Origin: Planctomycetota bacterium
GTDB lineage: Bacteria > Planctomycetota > MHYJ01 > JACPRB01
Length of the DNA stretch: 35,667 nt
Assembly (NCBI GenBank): GCA_016190155.1
Contig: JACPRB010000010.1
Coordinates: 1 to 35,667 of the forward strand
Direction: 5' to 3'
Positions 5,050 through 13,674 of this stretch are shown here, one piece after another. The position numbers and the translations under genes are program-made. The notes under the pieces are model-generated. The model made no database searches, had not been told where the DNA came from, and saw nothing but the letters and a program-made list of their open reading frames with translations. How positions within the stretch are numbered: the first letter of the stretch is position 1; each line of letters opens with the position of its first letter.

Positions 5050-6117
<1,068 letters not shown>

Positions 6118-6528
6118 ATGAGAATCCTCGCCGTCGACCTCGGAGAAAAGCGTACCGGTCTGGCGATCAGCACGCCGGACGAGCGGATGGCCTTGGCGCT
6201 CCCGACGCTCGTCCACGCCGACGCCGCTTCCGTGACGCGCGTCGCCCAGGAGCAGGCCGTCGAGATGATCGTCGTGGGGCTCCCGCTCAACATGGACGGG
6301 ACCGTCGGACCCCGCGCGGCCGCCGCGCAGGAATTCGCCGAGGAGCTTCGCCATCTCGTCACGATGCCCGTGACTTTGTGGGACGAGCGCCTCTCGACGG
6401 CGGAGGGCGAGGCGCGCCTGCGACAGGCGGGCTTGTCGCGACGGGATCGCGCGAAGCGTTCGGATGCGGCGGCCGCGATCGTGATCCTCGAGGCGTTCCT
6501 CGCGTCGCGCCGGAAGCGAGCTCTCTGA
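6118..6528 (+). CDS. ruvX: RuvX/YqgF family pre-16S rRNA nuclease
   Basis: A 136-residue RNase H-fold protein of the usual length for the family. Visible motifs are MRILAVDLGEKRTGLAIS with the first acidic residue at D7, IVVGLPLNMDGTVGPRA, and WDERLSTAEGEARL near the end, followed by SDAAAAIVILEAFL. In Escherichia coli YqgF acts in 5' processing of 16S rRNA; a Holliday-junction role was proposed earlier. The ATG directly abuts the manC stop. The gene ends 13 bases from a convergent stop, and no T-rich hairpin is seen in that gap. Confidence 0.92.
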   Translation: MRILAVDLGEKRTGLAISTPDERMALALPTLVHADAASVTRVAQEQAVEMIVVGLPLNMDGTVGPRAAAAQEFAEELRHLVTMPVTLWDERLSTAEGEARLRQAGLSRRDRAKRSDAAAAIVILEAFLASRRKRAL

Positions 6529-6541
6529 ACGACTCCCAGAT

Positions 6542-8059
6542 TCACGAACGCTGGAATAACGCTTCGAGCTTCTGCGCGGCACCCACACGGTGAACCCAAG
6601 CTTCGAGCTTTTCGCCGAAGTAGAGAGATGCCGTCAGCCTCGCCAGGGTATACAGGACCGTCGCCCCAGGGCGTGGCCCCACCGCGGCCACAGCCTCGAC
6701 CCCGGCTGCGGCGGTCAGATACGCCCCACCGCCGAGAGCTAAATCCGCGAGGGAAAACCGTCTCTCGACGAGCTGAACGGCGAGCATGCCCATCGTCAAC
6801 GGCAGCACGGCTCTTGCGCCCGCGCCCAGCAGGCCCCGGCCAAACCACCGCGCCAGACCGAATTCGGTCACGTTCGCGCTGGCCGTGAACGCGCCGAAAC
6901 CGAGCCAGAATCCCGGCTTCGTCAGGTCCCGTGGAGCTCTCCAATTTCCCTTCAGGATTTCCTTGAGGACATAGGCCGCCGGGAACTTAGCCCCCCTGGC
7001 CGTTTCTCGCACGATTCCGGAGCCCCGGCTCTGCGCTCCCGCGCTCGTCCGGCGCCACACGACCAATTCCTGACCCGGTTCGTTGTACCACAGGCGCAAC
7101 GTATCGGGCGCCCGGTATTTGGAATGCTCCCGTAGAGGCAACTCCGGCAAGATAGGCGCGTTTCTGCGGTCGGAAACCAGAATCCCATGCCGAGGATTGA
7201 GTCCATTCAACGCATCGCGGAACGTCGAATGATAAAGGGGCTCCTTGCCGATATCTAGTTTCACTAATGCCCGGTCATTCGATCGGTAGATGTCCGCCTT
7301 GAGCAGATAAGCGTCGTAACCCTGAGACAGGAATCGCTTCATCAGGCCCGGTCGCTCCCCCACTTCGGATAAATCGTGCTGGACGAAGAGAATCGTCCTC
7401 GGCTTTCCATCGAGCGTGAAATCGACGCGAACACGGTCTCGGTTCAGCTTACGTTCCGCTGCCGTAAGAGAGAGGTCAAAAAAGTCTCGACTCCGCTTTT
7501 CCAGCACTTTCTTGGAGATCTTCGATCCGTCGTCATCGACGTAGGTGACCACCACGTCTTTTCCACCCAACAGCCCTATTTCCCAAAGCATCGCGCTGCC
7601 GACCATGCCGAAACGACCGCGAAGGTGGACTTCCTCGGAGTAATCGCCATAGGAACGGTCGGCGAAATACTCCTGCCGAGCTTTGGCGTCGGAGAAGCGC
7701 TGGGCCACCCAGCCGGGTGGCCCGAACGACAAGACATCCACCATCAGCACCGTCGAGGGGCCTCCGCGCGGTCCTTCGAACACCTGGAACGCCACGCGCG
7801 CGTCGGCGCCGGCAAAGGGGTAGTAGACCCGCTCAACGAGACCTTCGGGATTGGCCTGCGCGCCTACCTCGCGATACACCTGGCGCGCCTCCGGCATCCA
7901 AGAGCCCGTCTCCGGCGACGGCAACGAAGGAAGAGGAATCGATGGAGAATCGATGCGCCCGAAAGCCGCCTGCGGACTCGATTTCTCCGCATCCTGGCCC
8001 CAAGCGCACGGACCGCTCGTGAGAACGAGGAGAACCCAACCCTGGCGTAATGAAAACAC
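6542..8059 (-). CDS. Exported membrane protein of unknown function
   Basis: A 505-residue protein with a GTG start (VFSLRQGWVL) preceded by AGGATAG. Residues 1 to about 23 look like a signal peptide, with possible cleavage after CAWG. The next 300 residues are a soluble region with alternating beta-like segments (VAFQVFEGPRGGPSTVLMVD, VDFTLDGKPRTILFVQHDL) and no family that I recognise. The last 150 residues hold about four hydrophobic segments (for example ALGGGAYLTAAAGVEAVAAVG), so the C-terminus is membrane-embedded. Base use from about 7000 to 8050 is slightly less GC-rich than that of its neighbours. It converges with ruvX; no partner gene suggests a role. Confidence 0.75.
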   Translation of the reverse strand: MFSLRQGWVLLVLTSGPCAWGQDAEKSSPQAAFGRIDSPSIPLPSLPSPETGSWMPEARQVYREVGAQANPEGLVERVYYPFAGADARVAFQVFEGPRGGPSTVLMVDVLSFGPPGWVAQRFSDAKARQEYFADRSYGDYSEEVHLRGRFGMVGSAMLWEIGLLGGKDVVVTYVDDDGSKISKKVLEKRSRDFFDLSLTAAERKLNRDRVRVDFTLDGKPRTILFVQHDLSEVGERPGLMKRFLSQGYDAYLLKADIYRSNDRALVKLDIGKEPLYHSTFRDALNGLNPRHGILVSDRRNAPILPELPLREHSKYRAPDTLRLWYNEPGQELVVWRRTSAGAQSRGSGIVRETARGAKFPAAYVLKEILKGNWRAPRDLTKPGFWLGFGAFTASANVTEFGLARWFGRGLLGAGARAVLPLTMGMLAVQLVERRFSLADLALGGGAYLTAAAGVEAVAAVGPRPGATVLYTLARLTASLYFGEKLEAWVHRVGAAQKLEALFQRS

Positions 8060-8502: not shown

Positions 8503-10743
8503 ATGAGACCGTTCCTCGCCTGCCTGCTCGCGGCGCTCGGCGCGTGCGCCGTCGCCCCGACCGGTCGATCCTCATGGACCACGCTTCGTACGGGAAGCGA
8601 GGACCTCGAGGTCTACCGCGACGACTGGGGCATCCCGCATGTCTTCGCCAAGAGCCTCCACGGCGCCTTCTGGGCGGAGGGATATATCGAGGCCCAGGAC
8701 CGCCTCGGGCAGCTCGAACGATTCCGCCGCTCCGCCAAAGGCGATCTGGCCGAATTGCTGGGCGAGAGCGAGCTCAAGAGCGACATCGAGCGCCGTCGGA
8801 ACGGCTATTCCGAGGCGGAGTTGCAAGCCATGTTCGACGCCTCCTCGGACCGCATGCGCGCGAGTTTTCGCGCCTATGCGGCCGGCATCAACGCTTTCCT
8901 CAGAGAAGGCGCGATGGTGTACGATCGCAAACCGCGCCCTTGGAGCGAAACCGATTCCGTCGCCATCGGCGTCATGATGTCCCGCACGTTCGGCGAGGCG
9001 GGAGCCGACCACGAGCTCGTCATCCAAAGCGTGTACGCACAGCTCGAGAAGCGTCTGGGAGCCGACAAGGCCTCGCTCCTCCTGCACGACATCCTCCGCG
9101 ATCACGATCCCTTCGCTCCCACGACCCTCAACGATCACGATCATGTGCCGGCCGGCCCGCCGCCCAAGGACGAGAAACACAACTTCGCTCCCGTGGATCG
9201 GGAGTGGCTCGCCGAAGTCCTGCGCGAACGCGAGGAGGTCCTCGCGCATCGCGAGACGATCGGGATCCCTACGTACGGCGGCTCCAACGCCTGGGTGATC
9301 GCGCCGAAGAAATCGGCCACGGGACGGCCGATCCTCTACGGCGGCCCGATGATGGGCTTCAAGACGCCTTCGATCTGCAACGAGATTCACCTCGTCGCGC
9401 CGGGCCTCAACGTCGCCGGAATGAGCTTCCCCGGCGTGCCGGGCGTCATGATCGGCTTCAACCAGAGGATCGCATGGACCACCACGTCGGGAGGAGCGGA
9501 CCTCGTTGATATCTACACGCTCGATCTCAACCCGGAGAATCACGGACAGTATCGATACAAGGACCAATGGCTCCCGTTCGAGGCCTCTGAAGTGGAGTTC
9601 AAGGTGGCGGGGCAAGAACCGCGGCGCGAGACCATCCTCCGCAGCCGCTACGGGCCGATCGTGGGCCCGATCGATCGCAAACACCTCCGCGCGCATGTGA
9701 AGGCGAGCTCCTTCTGGATGAAGGAGCATCGGACCTTCGAGGCCGTCCTCGACTTCAACTTCGCCGGCAGCCTCGAGGAATTTCGCCGCTCGGTGTCCAA
9801 GATCGTGACCAGCCATAACTTCTTCGTCGCCGACAAGGATGGCCATATCGGCTTCTGGTACTGCGGGGCGCACCCCAAGCGTCGGCCCGGCCATGACCCG
9901 CGCTTCCCGCAAAAGGGCGACGGGTCCATGGACTGGGAGGGCGTCCTGCCCTTCGAAGAGTGGCCGCAGGCGGTCGATCCCCCACACGGCTTCTTCGCCA
10001 ACTGGAACAATAAGCCGACCCGCGCGTGGGAGCCGTCGGGCTTCGGGAAGATCTTCTGGGGCAAGAAGATCATCGATACGCTCGAATCGAACGACACGCT
10101 GACGTTCGATCAGGCGGAAGCCCTCGCCCGCGAGACCGCCTACCACGACTACGTCGCCGAGTACACCGTCCCGCATATTCTGTCGGCCGCGCGCGACGCG
10201 AAGGACGCGGAGGTCGCGCGCGCCGTGGAGTTGCTCTCGCGATACGACTTCGTCAAGCGCGAAGGCCGCCCCGAGCCGGTGATCGTCGAGCGATGGACGC
10301 GGGCGATGGTGGCGAAGGTCTTCGGCGACGAGTTCTTTCCCATGCCCATCACGAGCCGCGAGGTACGGCGGTTCTTCGGCGATCCCTTGCTCTACCTCCT
10401 CGAGGGCAACGGCCTGGTCAAGTACGATTTCGTCGGCACGGGCGACCTCAAGGCCATGGCCGTGGAGGCGCTCCAAGAGGCCGTCAAAGGCGGAGTGGAT
10501 GCGCTGGCATGGCAGGACGACCGCGTGGACTTCAAGGGCAAGATCGGCCGGATCAAGAGCGCGAAGGGACGCGGCACGTTCCAGATGACCGTCGAGATCT
10601 CCAAGGACGGGCCGCGTGCCCGCACCCTGGCCGCGCCGGGCGAGTGCGAGTCGGAGGAGTCCGCGCACTACGCCGACCAGCTCCCGCTGTTCGAACGCTG
10701 GGAGTACAAACCTTTCGTGTGGCGCCGCGACGAGATGAAGTAG
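8503..10743 (+). CDS. Penicillin-acylase family N-terminal nucleophile amidase, lipoprotein
   Basis: A 746-residue member of the penicillin amidase (S45) family, which cleaves amides of acyl or aryl-acyl amines. The ATG at 8503 is preceded by AAGGAAAAG. The first 16 residues (MRPFLACLLAALGACA) carry a lipobox-like LGAC, so the protein is probably exported and lipidated. The alpha chain opens with VYRDDWGIPHVFA and AEGYIEAQDR, typical of the family. Autocleavage should occur before Ser261 in YGGSNAW, giving a beta chain of about 485 residues that starts with the catalytic serine. FANWNNKP and FNFAGSLEEFR are further family-like blocks. AHL acylases such as PvdQ belong here, so an N-acyl amide substrate is possible. 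It ends 11 bases before the btaA-like gene. Confidence 0.88.
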   Translation: MRPFLACLLAALGACAVAPTGRSSWTTLRTGSEDLEVYRDDWGIPHVFAKSLHGAFWAEGYIEAQDRLGQLERFRRSAKGDLAELLGESELKSDIERRRNGYSEAELQAMFDASSDRMRASFRAYAAGINAFLREGAMVYDRKPRPWSETDSVAIGVMMSRTFGEAGADHELVIQSVYAQLEKRLGADKASLLLHDILRDHDPFAPTTLNDHDHVPAGPPPKDEKHNFAPVDREWLAEVLREREEVLAHRETIGIPTYGGSNAWVIAPKKSATGRPILYGGPMMGFKTPSICNEIHLVAPGLNVAGMSFPGVPGVMIGFNQRIAWTTTSGGADLVDIYTLDLNPENHGQYRYKDQWLPFEASEVEFKVAGQEPRRETILRSRYGPIVGPIDRKHLRAHVKASSFWMKEHRTFEAVLDFNFAGSLEEFRRSVSKIVTSHNFFVADKDGHIGFWYCGAHPKRRPGHDPRFPQKGDGSMDWEGVLPFEEWPQAVDPPHGFFANWNNKPTRAWEPSGFGKIFWGKKIIDTLESNDTLTFDQAEALARETAYHDYVAEYTVPHILSAARDAKDAEVARAVELLSRYDFVKREGRPEPVIVERWTRAMVAKVFGDEFFPMPITSREVRRFFGDPLLYLLEGNGLVKYDFVGTGDLKAMAVEALQEAVKGGVDALAWQDDRVDFKGKIGRIKSAKGRGTFQMTVEISKDGPRARTLAAPGECESEESAHYADQLPLFERWEYKPFVWRRDEMK

Positions 10744-10754
10744 ACTTCCGGCGC

Positions 10755-11747
10755 ATGGCGAAGGGCTTCTTCTCCTCCTTGAACTACTCCTCCTGCAACG
10801 AGGACTGGCGCACGGAACGCCGCGCGCTGCGGATCGGCCCCGCCGACCGCGTGCTGGCCGTCACGGGCAGCGGCGATCGACCGCTCAATCTCCTCCTCGA
10901 CGATCCCGCCCAGGTCCTGGCGATCGACCTCAACCCGGCGCAAAACGAGCTCCTGCGCCTCAAGGCTGCGGCCATGGCCGCACGACCGTACGATGATTAC
11001 GTCGTGTTCCTGGGATTACGCGGCGGCGCGGGCGTTCTCTATGCGGGCCGATGGGAGCGGTATTATCGCAGGATGGCCCGCATCGGACGCCTCCTTCGCG
11101 GAAAGTCGATTCGCCGGCTCTTCGAATGCGCCGACATCGAAGAACAACGCGACTTCGTGCGACGTGTCTGGGATCGACGCTGGTGGCGACTCGTCTTCCG
11201 CGTGATGTGCGCCCCCATCATCTCGCGCGTCTTTCTGGGTGATCCGGCGTTCTATGCGCACGTCGATCCCGAGCTCTCCGTCGGCCGTTATGTGTACGAG
11301 TCGATGCTCGCCGGCCTCGATCGGCATCTCGCGCGCGAGAACTTCATGCTGTCGCTTGTCTTCCATGGACGCTTGTCCGAGCACGATTTGCCGCCGTATC
11401 TGGCGCCCGAGTCCGTGCCGGCCATTCGCGCCAGGTTGGGGCGACTCGAAATCCACACGGGCGATCTGCTCGCGTTCCTCGAATCGGTCCCGCCCGGACG
11501 CTTCACGCGATTCTCCCTTTCGGACGTGCCGTCGTACCTCGATCAAGCCGGCTTCGAACGCCTTTTGGAAGGGTTGGTCCGCGCGGCCGCTCCGGGAGCG
11601 CGCTTCTGCATCCGGCAGTTCCTGACCCGCCACCGCCTGCCGGAGCGATTCGACAAGGTGCTGCGCCGCGAGCCGGCCCTCGAGGAAGAGCTCCGCGCGG
11701 AGGACCGGGCGTTCGCCTATCGATTCGTCGTGGGAAGCGTCGGATGA
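10755..11747 (+). CDS. BtaA-like (DUF3419) SAM-dependent 3-amino-3-carboxypropyl transferase
   Basis: A 330-residue protein. The SAM-binding region VLAVTGSGDRPLNLLL followed by VLAIDLNPAQNELLRLK (residues 33-70) is the hallmark of DUF3419/BtaA. BtaA transfers the aminocarboxypropyl group of SAM to diacylglycerol to build the betaine-lipid headgroup. This protein is shorter than the bacterial BtaA I know (about 400 residues). No BtaB N-methyltransferase lies nearby, so the acceptor and end product are uncertain. The ATG at 10755 follows the acylase stop by 11 bases. The stop overlaps the next start (ATGA, 11744-11747), so translation is coupled to the GNAT gene. Confidence 0.8.
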   Translation: MAKGFFSSLNYSSCNEDWRTERRALRIGPADRVLAVTGSGDRPLNLLLDDPAQVLAIDLNPAQNELLRLKAAAMAARPYDDYVVFLGLRGGAGVLYAGRWERYYRRMARIGRLLRGKSIRRLFECADIEEQRDFVRRVWDRRWWRLVFRVMCAPIISRVFLGDPAFYAHVDPELSVGRYVYESMLAGLDRHLARENFMLSLVFHGRLSEHDLPPYLAPESVPAIRARLGRLEIHTGDLLAFLESVPPGRFTRFSLSDVPSYLDQAGFERLLEGLVRAAAPGARFCIRQFLTRHRLPERFDKVLRREPALEEELRAEDRAFAYRFVVGSVG

Positions 11748-12727
11748 AGATCGAGCCCTACACGCGCGAGCTGTCCGACGCGTGCGTCGCGCTGGAGCGC
11801 GCCTGCCCGCAGGGGGAGGCATTTCGCCTCTCCTTCCGGCGTCGTCAATTCCATCTGCGCGCGCAGTGCTACGACGAGGCGCGCATCCTCGTCGCGCGCG
11901 AAGGGGAGCGCGTGGTGGGAACGGTCGCGTGGGCCGTGAAGGACCTCATCATCCGAGGCGAGCCCCGGCGCGCGGGTTTCTACTTCGATCTGCGCGTGCA
12001 CCCGGATTTTCGCGGGCGCGGAATCGCCAAACGTCTCGGAGAGGAAGCCGTGGCCGCCGGCCAAGTGACGATGCGCTATGGATACTGCGTGGAGGACAAC
12101 CGCGTCTCGCGACACATCGTCGCGCTCCACGGAGGCGCGCCCGTGGGCGGCTATCGGTATCTGATATGGCCGATCTATCGTCCTCGACCGGTGCGAGGCG
12201 TTCCGTCCGAGGCCTTGCCGCGCGACGTCCACGTCGCGCAGGTCGAGGCGAACGGCCCCTTCGACTTCTATTGCGATCCGACGCGCGGCGGCCGGCTGAC
12301 GGGACATGTCCTCTCGCTGCTGGGCGATGGCGCGGGCTGTTCGGTGTGGTCCAACGCGGAGCTGCTCCAGGAAGTGGTGGAGCGCATCCCCTTCCGATAC
12401 CGGGTCGCGAGGCCGCTCGCGCGCCTCTGGCCTTTCGCGACTCCGCACATTCCCCGCTCAGGGGAGCTCGTGCGCAGTTGGTATGTCTACGACTTCTTCG
12501 CGCGGGACGCGGAGCGGGCGCGCGACCTCATGCGTCACGTGAACAATCTCGCGCTGGATCGGATGATTCAATATTGCAGTGTCGTCGCGCCTGGACGGCC
12601 GGACTGGTTCGAGGCCTTGCGGTCGGATACGCCGTCGTGGTGTTCGCCCGTCATCCCGTACGTCCTGCTGGTGACGGGCGTGGAAGGCCGCCTGGAGAGA
12701 CCCTACGTGGATATTCGGGATCTATGA
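11744..12727 (+). CDS. GNAT family N-acetyltransferase with a long C-terminal extension
   Basis: A 327-residue protein. The N-terminal half is a GNAT fold: ILVAREGERVVGTVAWAV, then DLRVHPDFRGRGIAKRLGEE (residues 82-101), which carries the RGRGIA acyl-CoA pyrophosphate loop. A single GNAT domain needs about 150 residues, so the extra 170 residues form a second region, perhaps a degenerate second GNAT fold or an acceptor-binding domain. It overlaps both neighbours through ATGA junctions (11744-11747 and 12724-12727), tying it to the BtaA-like and UbiA-like enzymes. The acceptor is unknown; an amine made by the BtaA-like step is one inference. Confidence 0.8.
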   Translation: MKIEPYTRELSDACVALERACPQGEAFRLSFRRRQFHLRAQCYDEARILVAREGERVVGTVAWAVKDLIIRGEPRRAGFYFDLRVHPDFRGRGIAKRLGEEAVAAGQVTMRYGYCVEDNRVSRHIVALHGGAPVGGYRYLIWPIYRPRPVRGVPSEALPRDVHVAQVEANGPFDFYCDPTRGGRLTGHVLSLLGDGAGCSVWSNAELLQEVVERIPFRYRVARPLARLWPFATPHIPRSGELVRSWYVYDFFARDAERARDLMRHVNNLALDRMIQYCSVVAPGRPDWFEALRSDTPSWCSPVIPYVLLVTGVEGRLERPYVDIRDL

Positions 12728-13674
12728 CGATGAGTTCGCCTTATTCCATGTCGAGTCCGCGGTGGTGGCACGCGTATTGGGTCACGTTGCGGCCGTATCT
12801 CTTCTTCGTGAGCGGCGCATCGGGATTGGTGGGGCTGGCGCTGACTCCCTCGCCGTCGTGGCTCGCCTTCACGGCTTTCTTCTTCTCCTACGGCTTGGGA
12901 CAGGCGCTGACGGACTGCTTCCAAAGGGACACGGACGCGATTTCTTCGCCCTATCGCCCGCTCACGCGGGGGCTCATCACGCCCCGACAGGTGCTCGCGG
13001 TCAGTCTGATCGGCCTCGGCTTGTGTGGGGCGATCGTGGTGGCGCTCAATCCATGGAATGCCCCGCTCAGTCTCCTGGGCGTCGCGGGGTTGGCCACGTA
13101 CACGCCGTTCAAGCGCCGCTGGTGGGGCGGTCCGCCCTGGAATAGTTGGATCGTGGCGCTCCTGCCCGCCATGGGGTTTCTGTGCGGCGTGTCCGATCCG
13201 CGTGCGGCGCTGGGGAACGCTTCGCTCGGCGCGGCGATGCTCTCGGTCTTCTTCACGTACGCCGTCTTCGTCATCCTGGGCTACCACAAAGACATCAACG
13301 CCGACCGCGCCACCGGCTACGACACGATTCCCGTGCGCTTCGGGTGGGGGAGTTCCGTCCTCGCGAGCTTCCTTTGCGCCCTGGCGGGCTTGGCGGCAAG
13401 TGGATGGGCGTTGTGGCGAGCGCAGCCGCGCGTGTCCGCTTGGGCGCTCGCGCTGATCGGCGCGATCCTGCTGGTGGCGGCTCACGCGGTCATGATGCGC
13501 ACGCGCGACGAGAAGCGCGCGTATCCCGCGATCGAACTCGTGGTGCGCGGCTACGTGCTGGTCCATTTGGGGGAGGCTGTCGCCTTCCGGCCGATCCTGA
13601 TGTGGCCCGCGATGGGCTTCTATGCGCTCTTCGAGATGGCCCTCGCGCTGCGGCCGAGTCGCGCGCAGGTCTAA
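12724..13674 (+). CDS. UbiA-family prenyltransferase, chlorophyll-synthase/DGGGP-synthase-like
   Basis: A 316-residue polytopic membrane enzyme with about eight to nine hydrophobic segments. UbiA enzymes move a prenyl group from a prenyl diphosphate to a lipophilic acceptor. The second Asp motif is intact: K-D190-INA-D194 followed by RATGYDTIPVRFG, close to the chlorophyll-synthase pattern. The first motif, usually NDxxDxxxD, reads T63-D64-CF-Q67-RDT-D71 followed by AISSPYRP, so the leading Asn and the central Asp are changed. Activity may be altered, or the Mg-binding may use D69. Translation is coupled to the GNAT gene. Followed at once by a strong hairpin. Confidence 0.85.
   Translation: MTMSSPYSMSSPRWWHAYWVTLRPYLFFVSGASGLVGLALTPSPSWLAFTAFFFSYGLGQALTDCFQRDTDAISSPYRPLTRGLITPRQVLAVSLIGLGLCGAIVVALNPWNAPLSLLGVAGLATYTPFKRRWWGGPPWNSWIVALLPAMGFLCGVSDPRAALGNASLGAAMLSVFFTYAVFVILGYHKDINADRATGYDTIPVRFGWGSSVLASFLCALAGLAASGWALWRAQPRVSAWALALIGAILLVAAHAVMMRTRDEKRAYPAIELVVRGYVLVHLGEAVAFRPILMWPAMGFYALFEMALALRPSRAQV

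Follow-up and report, generated by a model that had tools for sequence, protein, structure and literature searches.

Judged by sequence comparison, the genes for a DUF3419 protein, a GNAT and a UbiA-superfamily membrane transferase in the window, the whole 35,667-nucleotide stretch of DNA analysed here, are a real conserved module. In other genomes this module lies within a larger cassette that encodes UbiA, a DAGK-type lipid kinase, a ThiL-like kinase and often an alpha-oxoamine synthase (AOS). There is about an even chance that the three genes (10755-13674) are part of an amino-lipid pathway with AOS, DAGK and ThiL-like proteins, and that the acylase gene upstream of them is an older neighbour.

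Gene arrangement in the window

The window corresponds to contig C109 in an 88%-complete genome of 4.49 Mb and 360 contigs. The acylase gene (8503-10743, plus strand) begins with ATG at 8503, ends with TAG at 10743 and matches Penicil_amidase (Pfam PF01804) with 463.6 bits. After an 11-base gap it is followed on the same strand by the DUF3419 gene (10755-11747; ATG at 10755, TGA at 11747), which matches PF11899 with 201.8 bits against a cut-off of 28.2. The GNAT gene (11744-12727, plus strand) encodes a predicted tandem-domain acyltransferase with matches of 33-37 bits to Pfam GNAT families in its N-terminal third only. The UbiA gene (12724-13674, plus strand) matches Pfam UbiA with 96.4 bits and belongs to a distinct clade. 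As read off the window sequence, ATGA overlaps join DUF3419 to GNAT at 11744 and GNAT to UbiA at 12724. A first-pass annotation of this DNA described the same four plus-strand genes, gap and two overlaps with coordinates that are exact on the sequence, and all of its family names (penicillin-acylase, DUF3419, GNAT, UbiA) are matched by Pfam.

Upstream of the acylase, the window contains a nucleotidyltransferase gene (5050-6117) and ruvX (6118-6528). Between ruvX and the acylase is a minus-strand ORF of 505 aa without a Pfam match (6542-8059), with a GC3 of 0.71 compared with approximately 0.86 in the adjacent genes. This ORF separates ruvX from the acylase in the window; the two genes adjoin in the genomes G001 and G004.

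The gene run is more than chance for DUF3419, GNAT and UbiA, the acylase excepted. Co-occurrence across genomes holds for these three, which are neighbours elsewhere, but not for the acylase, which is separate in relatives.

The module and the wider cassette

G161, which belongs to a different planctomycete class, has the DUF3419, GNAT and UbiA genes in the same order as the window, with identities of 37%, 36% and 51%, respectively. They are flanked by AOS and by DAGK-ThiL-ACS. Contig C44 of G161 and locus L083 are one 22,811-base contig with identical proteins. G161 is the only other genome in a 392-genome sample of the phylum with a window-type GNAT. No GNAT relatives are found by a single-protein scan of genome contigs, and none are present in 23 genomes of the same class. 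The closest-class DUF3419 neighbours, in G007 and G016, have no GNAT or UbiA partners.

The UbiA scan used an alignment of the window and G161 UbiA proteins and a pattern search seeded on two UbiA peptides. Its frequencies hold only for the sampled loci, the best 80 of 102. These loci span approximately 13 phyla: Bacteroidota, Ignavibacteriota, Calditrichota, Gemmatimonadota, Eisenbacteria, Cloacimonadota, WOR-3, Aminicenantes, Acidobacteriota, Zixibacteria, Planctomycetota, Desulfobacterota and Pseudomonadota. Within the best 80 of 102 loci, the neighbour clusters are UbiA (76), DAGK (70), ThiL-like (64), AOS (43), B12-radical SAM (27), SDR (25), acyl-CoA synthetase (13), GNAT (12) and DUF3419 (10). 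A simple script of our own called the neighbour genes; because it at times picks the opposite strand where loci are GC-rich, the counts are lower bounds.

Every DUF3419 gene in these loci (10 of 10; best 80 of 102) is directly followed by GNAT, with a spacing of -8 to +2 nt. The gene order is AOS-DUF3419-GNAT-UbiA-DAGK-ThiL in WOR-3 (L102), ThiL-DUF3419-GNAT-DAGK-UbiA in Dyadobacter (L129) and UbiA-DAGK-ThiL-AOS-DUF3419-GNAT in Ignavibacteriales (L112). The reshuffling of order among phyla with retention of content favours function over inherited order as the cause of the linkage. In five of six carrier genomes DUF3419 is confined to the cassette, and it is absent from six cassette genomes whose cassette has none. 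The coupling of DUF3419, GNAT and UbiA proposed by the first-pass annotation is thus borne out by conserved neighbours, in G161 and in the ten DUF3419-GNAT loci.

At L065 (7661-14211; G242), AOS and DUF3419 are fused in one 779-aa protein (PF00155 and PF11899). The fusion gene is followed by a PS-decarboxylase-like gene, a gene for a protein without a Pfam match and an MMPL exporter gene. Forced alignment of the Pfam-less protein with the window GNAT gives approximately 26% identity. The PS-decarboxylase-like enzyme could decarboxylate the aminocarboxypropyl head.

Approximately 68 of the 80 cassettes (best 80 of 102) contain neither DUF3419 nor GNAT in the visible stretch, and the two-gene module is therefore optional. 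It is rare in the order of Dyadobacter, where GNAT is present in 2 of 292 genomes. The GNAT loci (12) and the radical-SAM loci (27) do not overlap (Fisher p 0.006; best 80 of 102), in a sample where contigs are incomplete and kin loci are not independent. The B12-binding-type radical SAM protein is found at the cassette edge, at L158 (14157-15596) and 26 other loci, none of which has DUF3419 or GNAT in the sample.

No description of the cassette was found in open-licence PMC papers searched for DUF3419, UbiA with SPT/sphingolipid, AOS with UbiA, and ThiL/DAGK. The cassette is apparently an undescribed, patchily distributed gene set.

The UbiA protein

The first, Asp-rich metal-binding motif of UbiA is TDCFQRDTD in the window and TDxx[QH]xDTD in 71 of 71 clade members, compared with the canonical NDxxDxxxD. 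The second motif is intact (KDINAD in the window), and its DxxxD aspartates, D190 and D194, are invariant. In the UbiA tree, the sister of the window protein is a Thermoanaerobaculaceae protein (100/100 support), within a mixed-phylum clade. This placement would fit horizontal spread. The UbiA assignment made by the first-pass annotation stands, but the departure of motif 1 throughout the clade makes prenyl transfer by this enzyme uncertain.

It is possible, if doubtful, that UbiA is an ordinary DGGGP-synthase-type isoprenyl transferase. It would then alkylate the hydroxyl of a DAGK-phosphorylated long-chain base to give a mixed isoprenoid/amino lipid, and the ThiL-like protein would supply isoprenyl diphosphate or have another function. 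The nearest solved relatives by sequence, MjDGGGPS 6m31 (the best PDB match) and chlorophyll synthase, are consistent with such an enzyme, as are the shared fold family and motif 2 (KDxxAD). The best NCBIfam models are likewise geranylgeranylglycerol-phosphate geranylgeranyltransferases, although with scores far under cut-off, and functional GGGPS/DGGGPS enzymes are known from bacteria of the FCB group (PMC7852524). The altered motif 1 argues against it, as does the neighbourhood, where no GGGPS is recognised among the recurrent genes of the best 80 of 102 loci.

UbiA and DUF3419 also recur together in a separate context. In four loci of the planctomycete phylum (L075, L076, L078 and L079), genes for a UbiA-like, a PPDK-like, a DUF3419 and a membrane-type protein form a row. 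The row is assigned by Pfam in L078 (UbiA, PPDK_N, DUF3419 and HMG-CoA reductase, the membrane-type protein having no Pfam match) and by gene calls and tblastn in the other three. The membrane-type protein may be a dolichol/phytol-kinase-like enzyme.

The GNAT protein

The AlphaFold model of the GNAT has a pLDDT of 87.8. In a Foldseek search with this model, the best 50 PDB matches are all N-myristoyltransferases (NMTs), with E down to 4e-13 and TMq of 0.60-0.66. Identity to NMTs is 10-13% and the likeness is by predicted fold only. The long extra domain noted in the first-pass annotation corresponds in the predicted structure to another GNAT-like domain, giving an NMT-like arrangement; the sequence profile detects the N-terminal GNAT domain only. 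The CoA motif is R90/G93. The C-terminal end, xD[VIA]R[DC]-hydrophobic-COOH, falls in the same alignment column in 13 of 13 members. NMT uses its terminal carboxylate as catalytic base, and by analogy the GNAT C-terminal end suggests the same chemistry.

Because the model matches NMTs, long-chain N-acylation is the likely reaction of the GNAT. The same predicted fold supports the earlier idea that this protein could acylate an amine. Like NMT, the GNAT has a predicted tandem-GNAT fold and a strictly conserved C-terminal end; unlike NMT, it is bacterial and is encoded in a lipid cluster.

The DUF3419 protein and the rest of the genome

The DUF3419 residues of the SAM site (G38, S39, G40, R42, D58 and N60) are conserved, as are S254, S256, D257, S260 and R287. 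The protein is modelled as a SAM Rossmann fold, which weakly resembles NAT (nocardicin aminocarboxypropyl transferase) and nicotianamine synthase; a PDB sequence search finds no solved homologues. Loss of the SAM-site residues, which would have spoken against the first-pass reading, is not seen. The protein is a putative BtaA-related SAM-dependent 3-amino-3-carboxypropyl transferase, BtaA being a known aminocarboxypropyl transferase (PMC10491745). It shares PF11899 and the SAM-site residues with the BtaA/BtaB (DGTS) pathway. As the first-pass annotation stated, the locus is not simply that pathway: the four-gene run has no BtaB, and in the cassette DUF3419 is accompanied by a long-chain-base-type synthase, lipid kinases, UbiA and the NMT-like GNAT. 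At L066 (448-5745), a clade-related DUF3419 gene is beside genes named by sequence reading as ketoacyl-synthase-III-like, MMPL-like transporter and P450-like.

The window DUF3419 differs from BtaA in a further respect, a 32-residue gap. The protein is approximately 32 residues short, in frame, between residues ~92 and 93 (window 11005-11040). All 10 cassette homologues and three relatives aligned contain this segment, and the gap is found in the window copy only. Because residues kept by all compared homologues are missing, the window copy is uncertain and may be altered, inactive or mis-assembled.

AOS is linked to UbiA in 43 of the 80 loci (best 80 of 102) and fused to DUF3419 in L065; there is none in the window. 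The window's genome contains three AOS-type genes. One of them, on its contig C44, is close to serine palmitoyltransferase, with 554.9 bits compared with a cut-off of 640. No ThiL-like orthologue is found in this 88%-complete genome. A cassette-type DAGK gene is present on contig C133 (L174, 1681-8925), its product having 34-44% identity to cassette DAGKs. It is followed by a gene for a thymidylate-kinase-like P-loop protein, and nearby are genes for a PEP-synthase-like (PPDK-like) protein and for a fusion of a class-III aminotransferase with an acyl-ACP-reductase-like domain. This fusion could supply a fatty amine, and the C133 genes may act together with the triad.

Decay or repurposing of the window locus, as a fragment acquired by transfer of part of the cassette and left with a shortened DUF3419, is unlikely. 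The gap in a segment common to all compared homologues, the lack of adjacent AOS and ThiL-like genes and the missing GNAT in same-family genomes point towards decay. Against it, none of the three reading frames is interrupted and their coupling is tight, the catalytic motifs are retained, the shortened DUF3419 still gives a confident AlphaFold model (pLDDT 89.4) and a cassette-type DAGK is kept elsewhere in the genome.

The acylase

The acylase, a putative lipoprotein, has the Ntn-hydrolase serine, S261, which aligns with residue 1 of the autoprocessed beta chain, and LGAC is a plausible lipobox candidate. The 392-genome phylum sample includes four same-family genomes, and three of these (G001, G003 and G004) encode the acylase, with 55-62% identity. 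It directly follows nucleotidyltransferase and ruvX homologues in G001 and G004, and in these genomes nucleotidyltransferase-ruvX-acylase is an old syntenic block. In G003 the acylase is close to a contig end and its downstream side is outside view. The window GNAT has no match in these three genomes, and the triad genes have none in the acylase stretches taken from them.

The acylase is probably a vertically inherited neighbour outside the module. It may be co-transcribed with the triad, though nothing ties it to the module. As a pathway partner, the role given to it by the first-pass annotation, the acylase is not supported: relatives keep it without the triad, and 0 of 80 UbiA loci (best 80 of 102) carry one. 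A single pathway of all four genes, in which an N-acylated, prenylated homoserine-ether lipid is formed and the acylase removes or remodels the N-acyl group, is very improbable: the 11-base gap and ATGA overlaps suggest a single transcript and the acylase is intact, but G161 carries the triad with no acylase, the three same-family genomes show the converse (after ruvX in two) and the UbiA loci have none.

Proposed pathway

The preferred reading remains an amino-lipid pathway in which the triad takes part and the acylase does not. From linkage, the AOS::DUF3419 fusion, predicted fold and conserved residues we infer its substrates, step order and product as follows. In the common form of the cassette, the serine-palmitoyltransferase-like AOS would make a long-chain amino ketone or alcohol, and the DAGK/sphingosine-kinase-type enzyme would phosphorylate a lipid hydroxyl. 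ThiL converts thiamine monophosphate to the diphosphate, and because of this reaction the ThiL-like kinase may, by analogy, turn the lipid phosphate into a diphosphate. The UbiA-fold membrane enzyme would then form an ether- or phosphate-linked conjugate. As an optional tailoring module of two genes, DUF3419 would transfer a 3-amino-3-carboxypropyl group from SAM to the core lipid, at a hydroxyl or an amine, and the NMT-like GNAT would place a long-chain acyl group on a free amine. In the window's genome the pathway would be split, with the triad on C109 and the cassette-type DAGK on C133.

A more specific form is put forward tentatively. The cassette may make a novel amino-lipid class over approximately 13 phyla, in which the kinase pair, DAGK and then the ThiL-like protein, makes a diphosphate donor from a lipid alcohol for the rewritten-motif UbiA, and DUF3419 and GNAT add an N-fatty-acylated homoserine-type head. 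The first-pass annotation is right that the locus is of lipid type, but the larger cassette, which holds AOS, DAGK and ThiL-like genes, favours a long-chain-base or amine lipid over a diacylglycerol homoserine ether.

The Caulobacter sphingolipid pathway consists of Spt, CerR, the N-acyltransferase CerS and the ceramide kinase CC_1160 (PMC11324152). The cassette resembles it in holding AOS, SDR, N-acyltransferase and lipid kinase families. It differs in the addition of UbiA and ThiL-like genes, in some loci also DUF3419 or B12-radical SAM, and in an AOS that falls under the NCBIfam SPT cut-offs.

Implications

A guess about four genes becomes a testable lipid pathway in multiple phyla, and cultured carriers of the cassette in the UbiA scan include Dyadobacter fermentans JDP9 and D. 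jiangsuensis DSM 29057. Bacterial DUF3419 proteins gain a non-betaine context, and the predicted structure of the GNAT suggests a bacterial NMT-like lipid N-acyltransferase. The UbiA clade has a non-canonical metal site, and annotation as ordinary prenyltransferases may be wrong for its members. "Unidentified aminolipids" are reportedly listed in Bacteroidota papers in which Dyadobacter is mentioned, and the proposed pathway might account for them.
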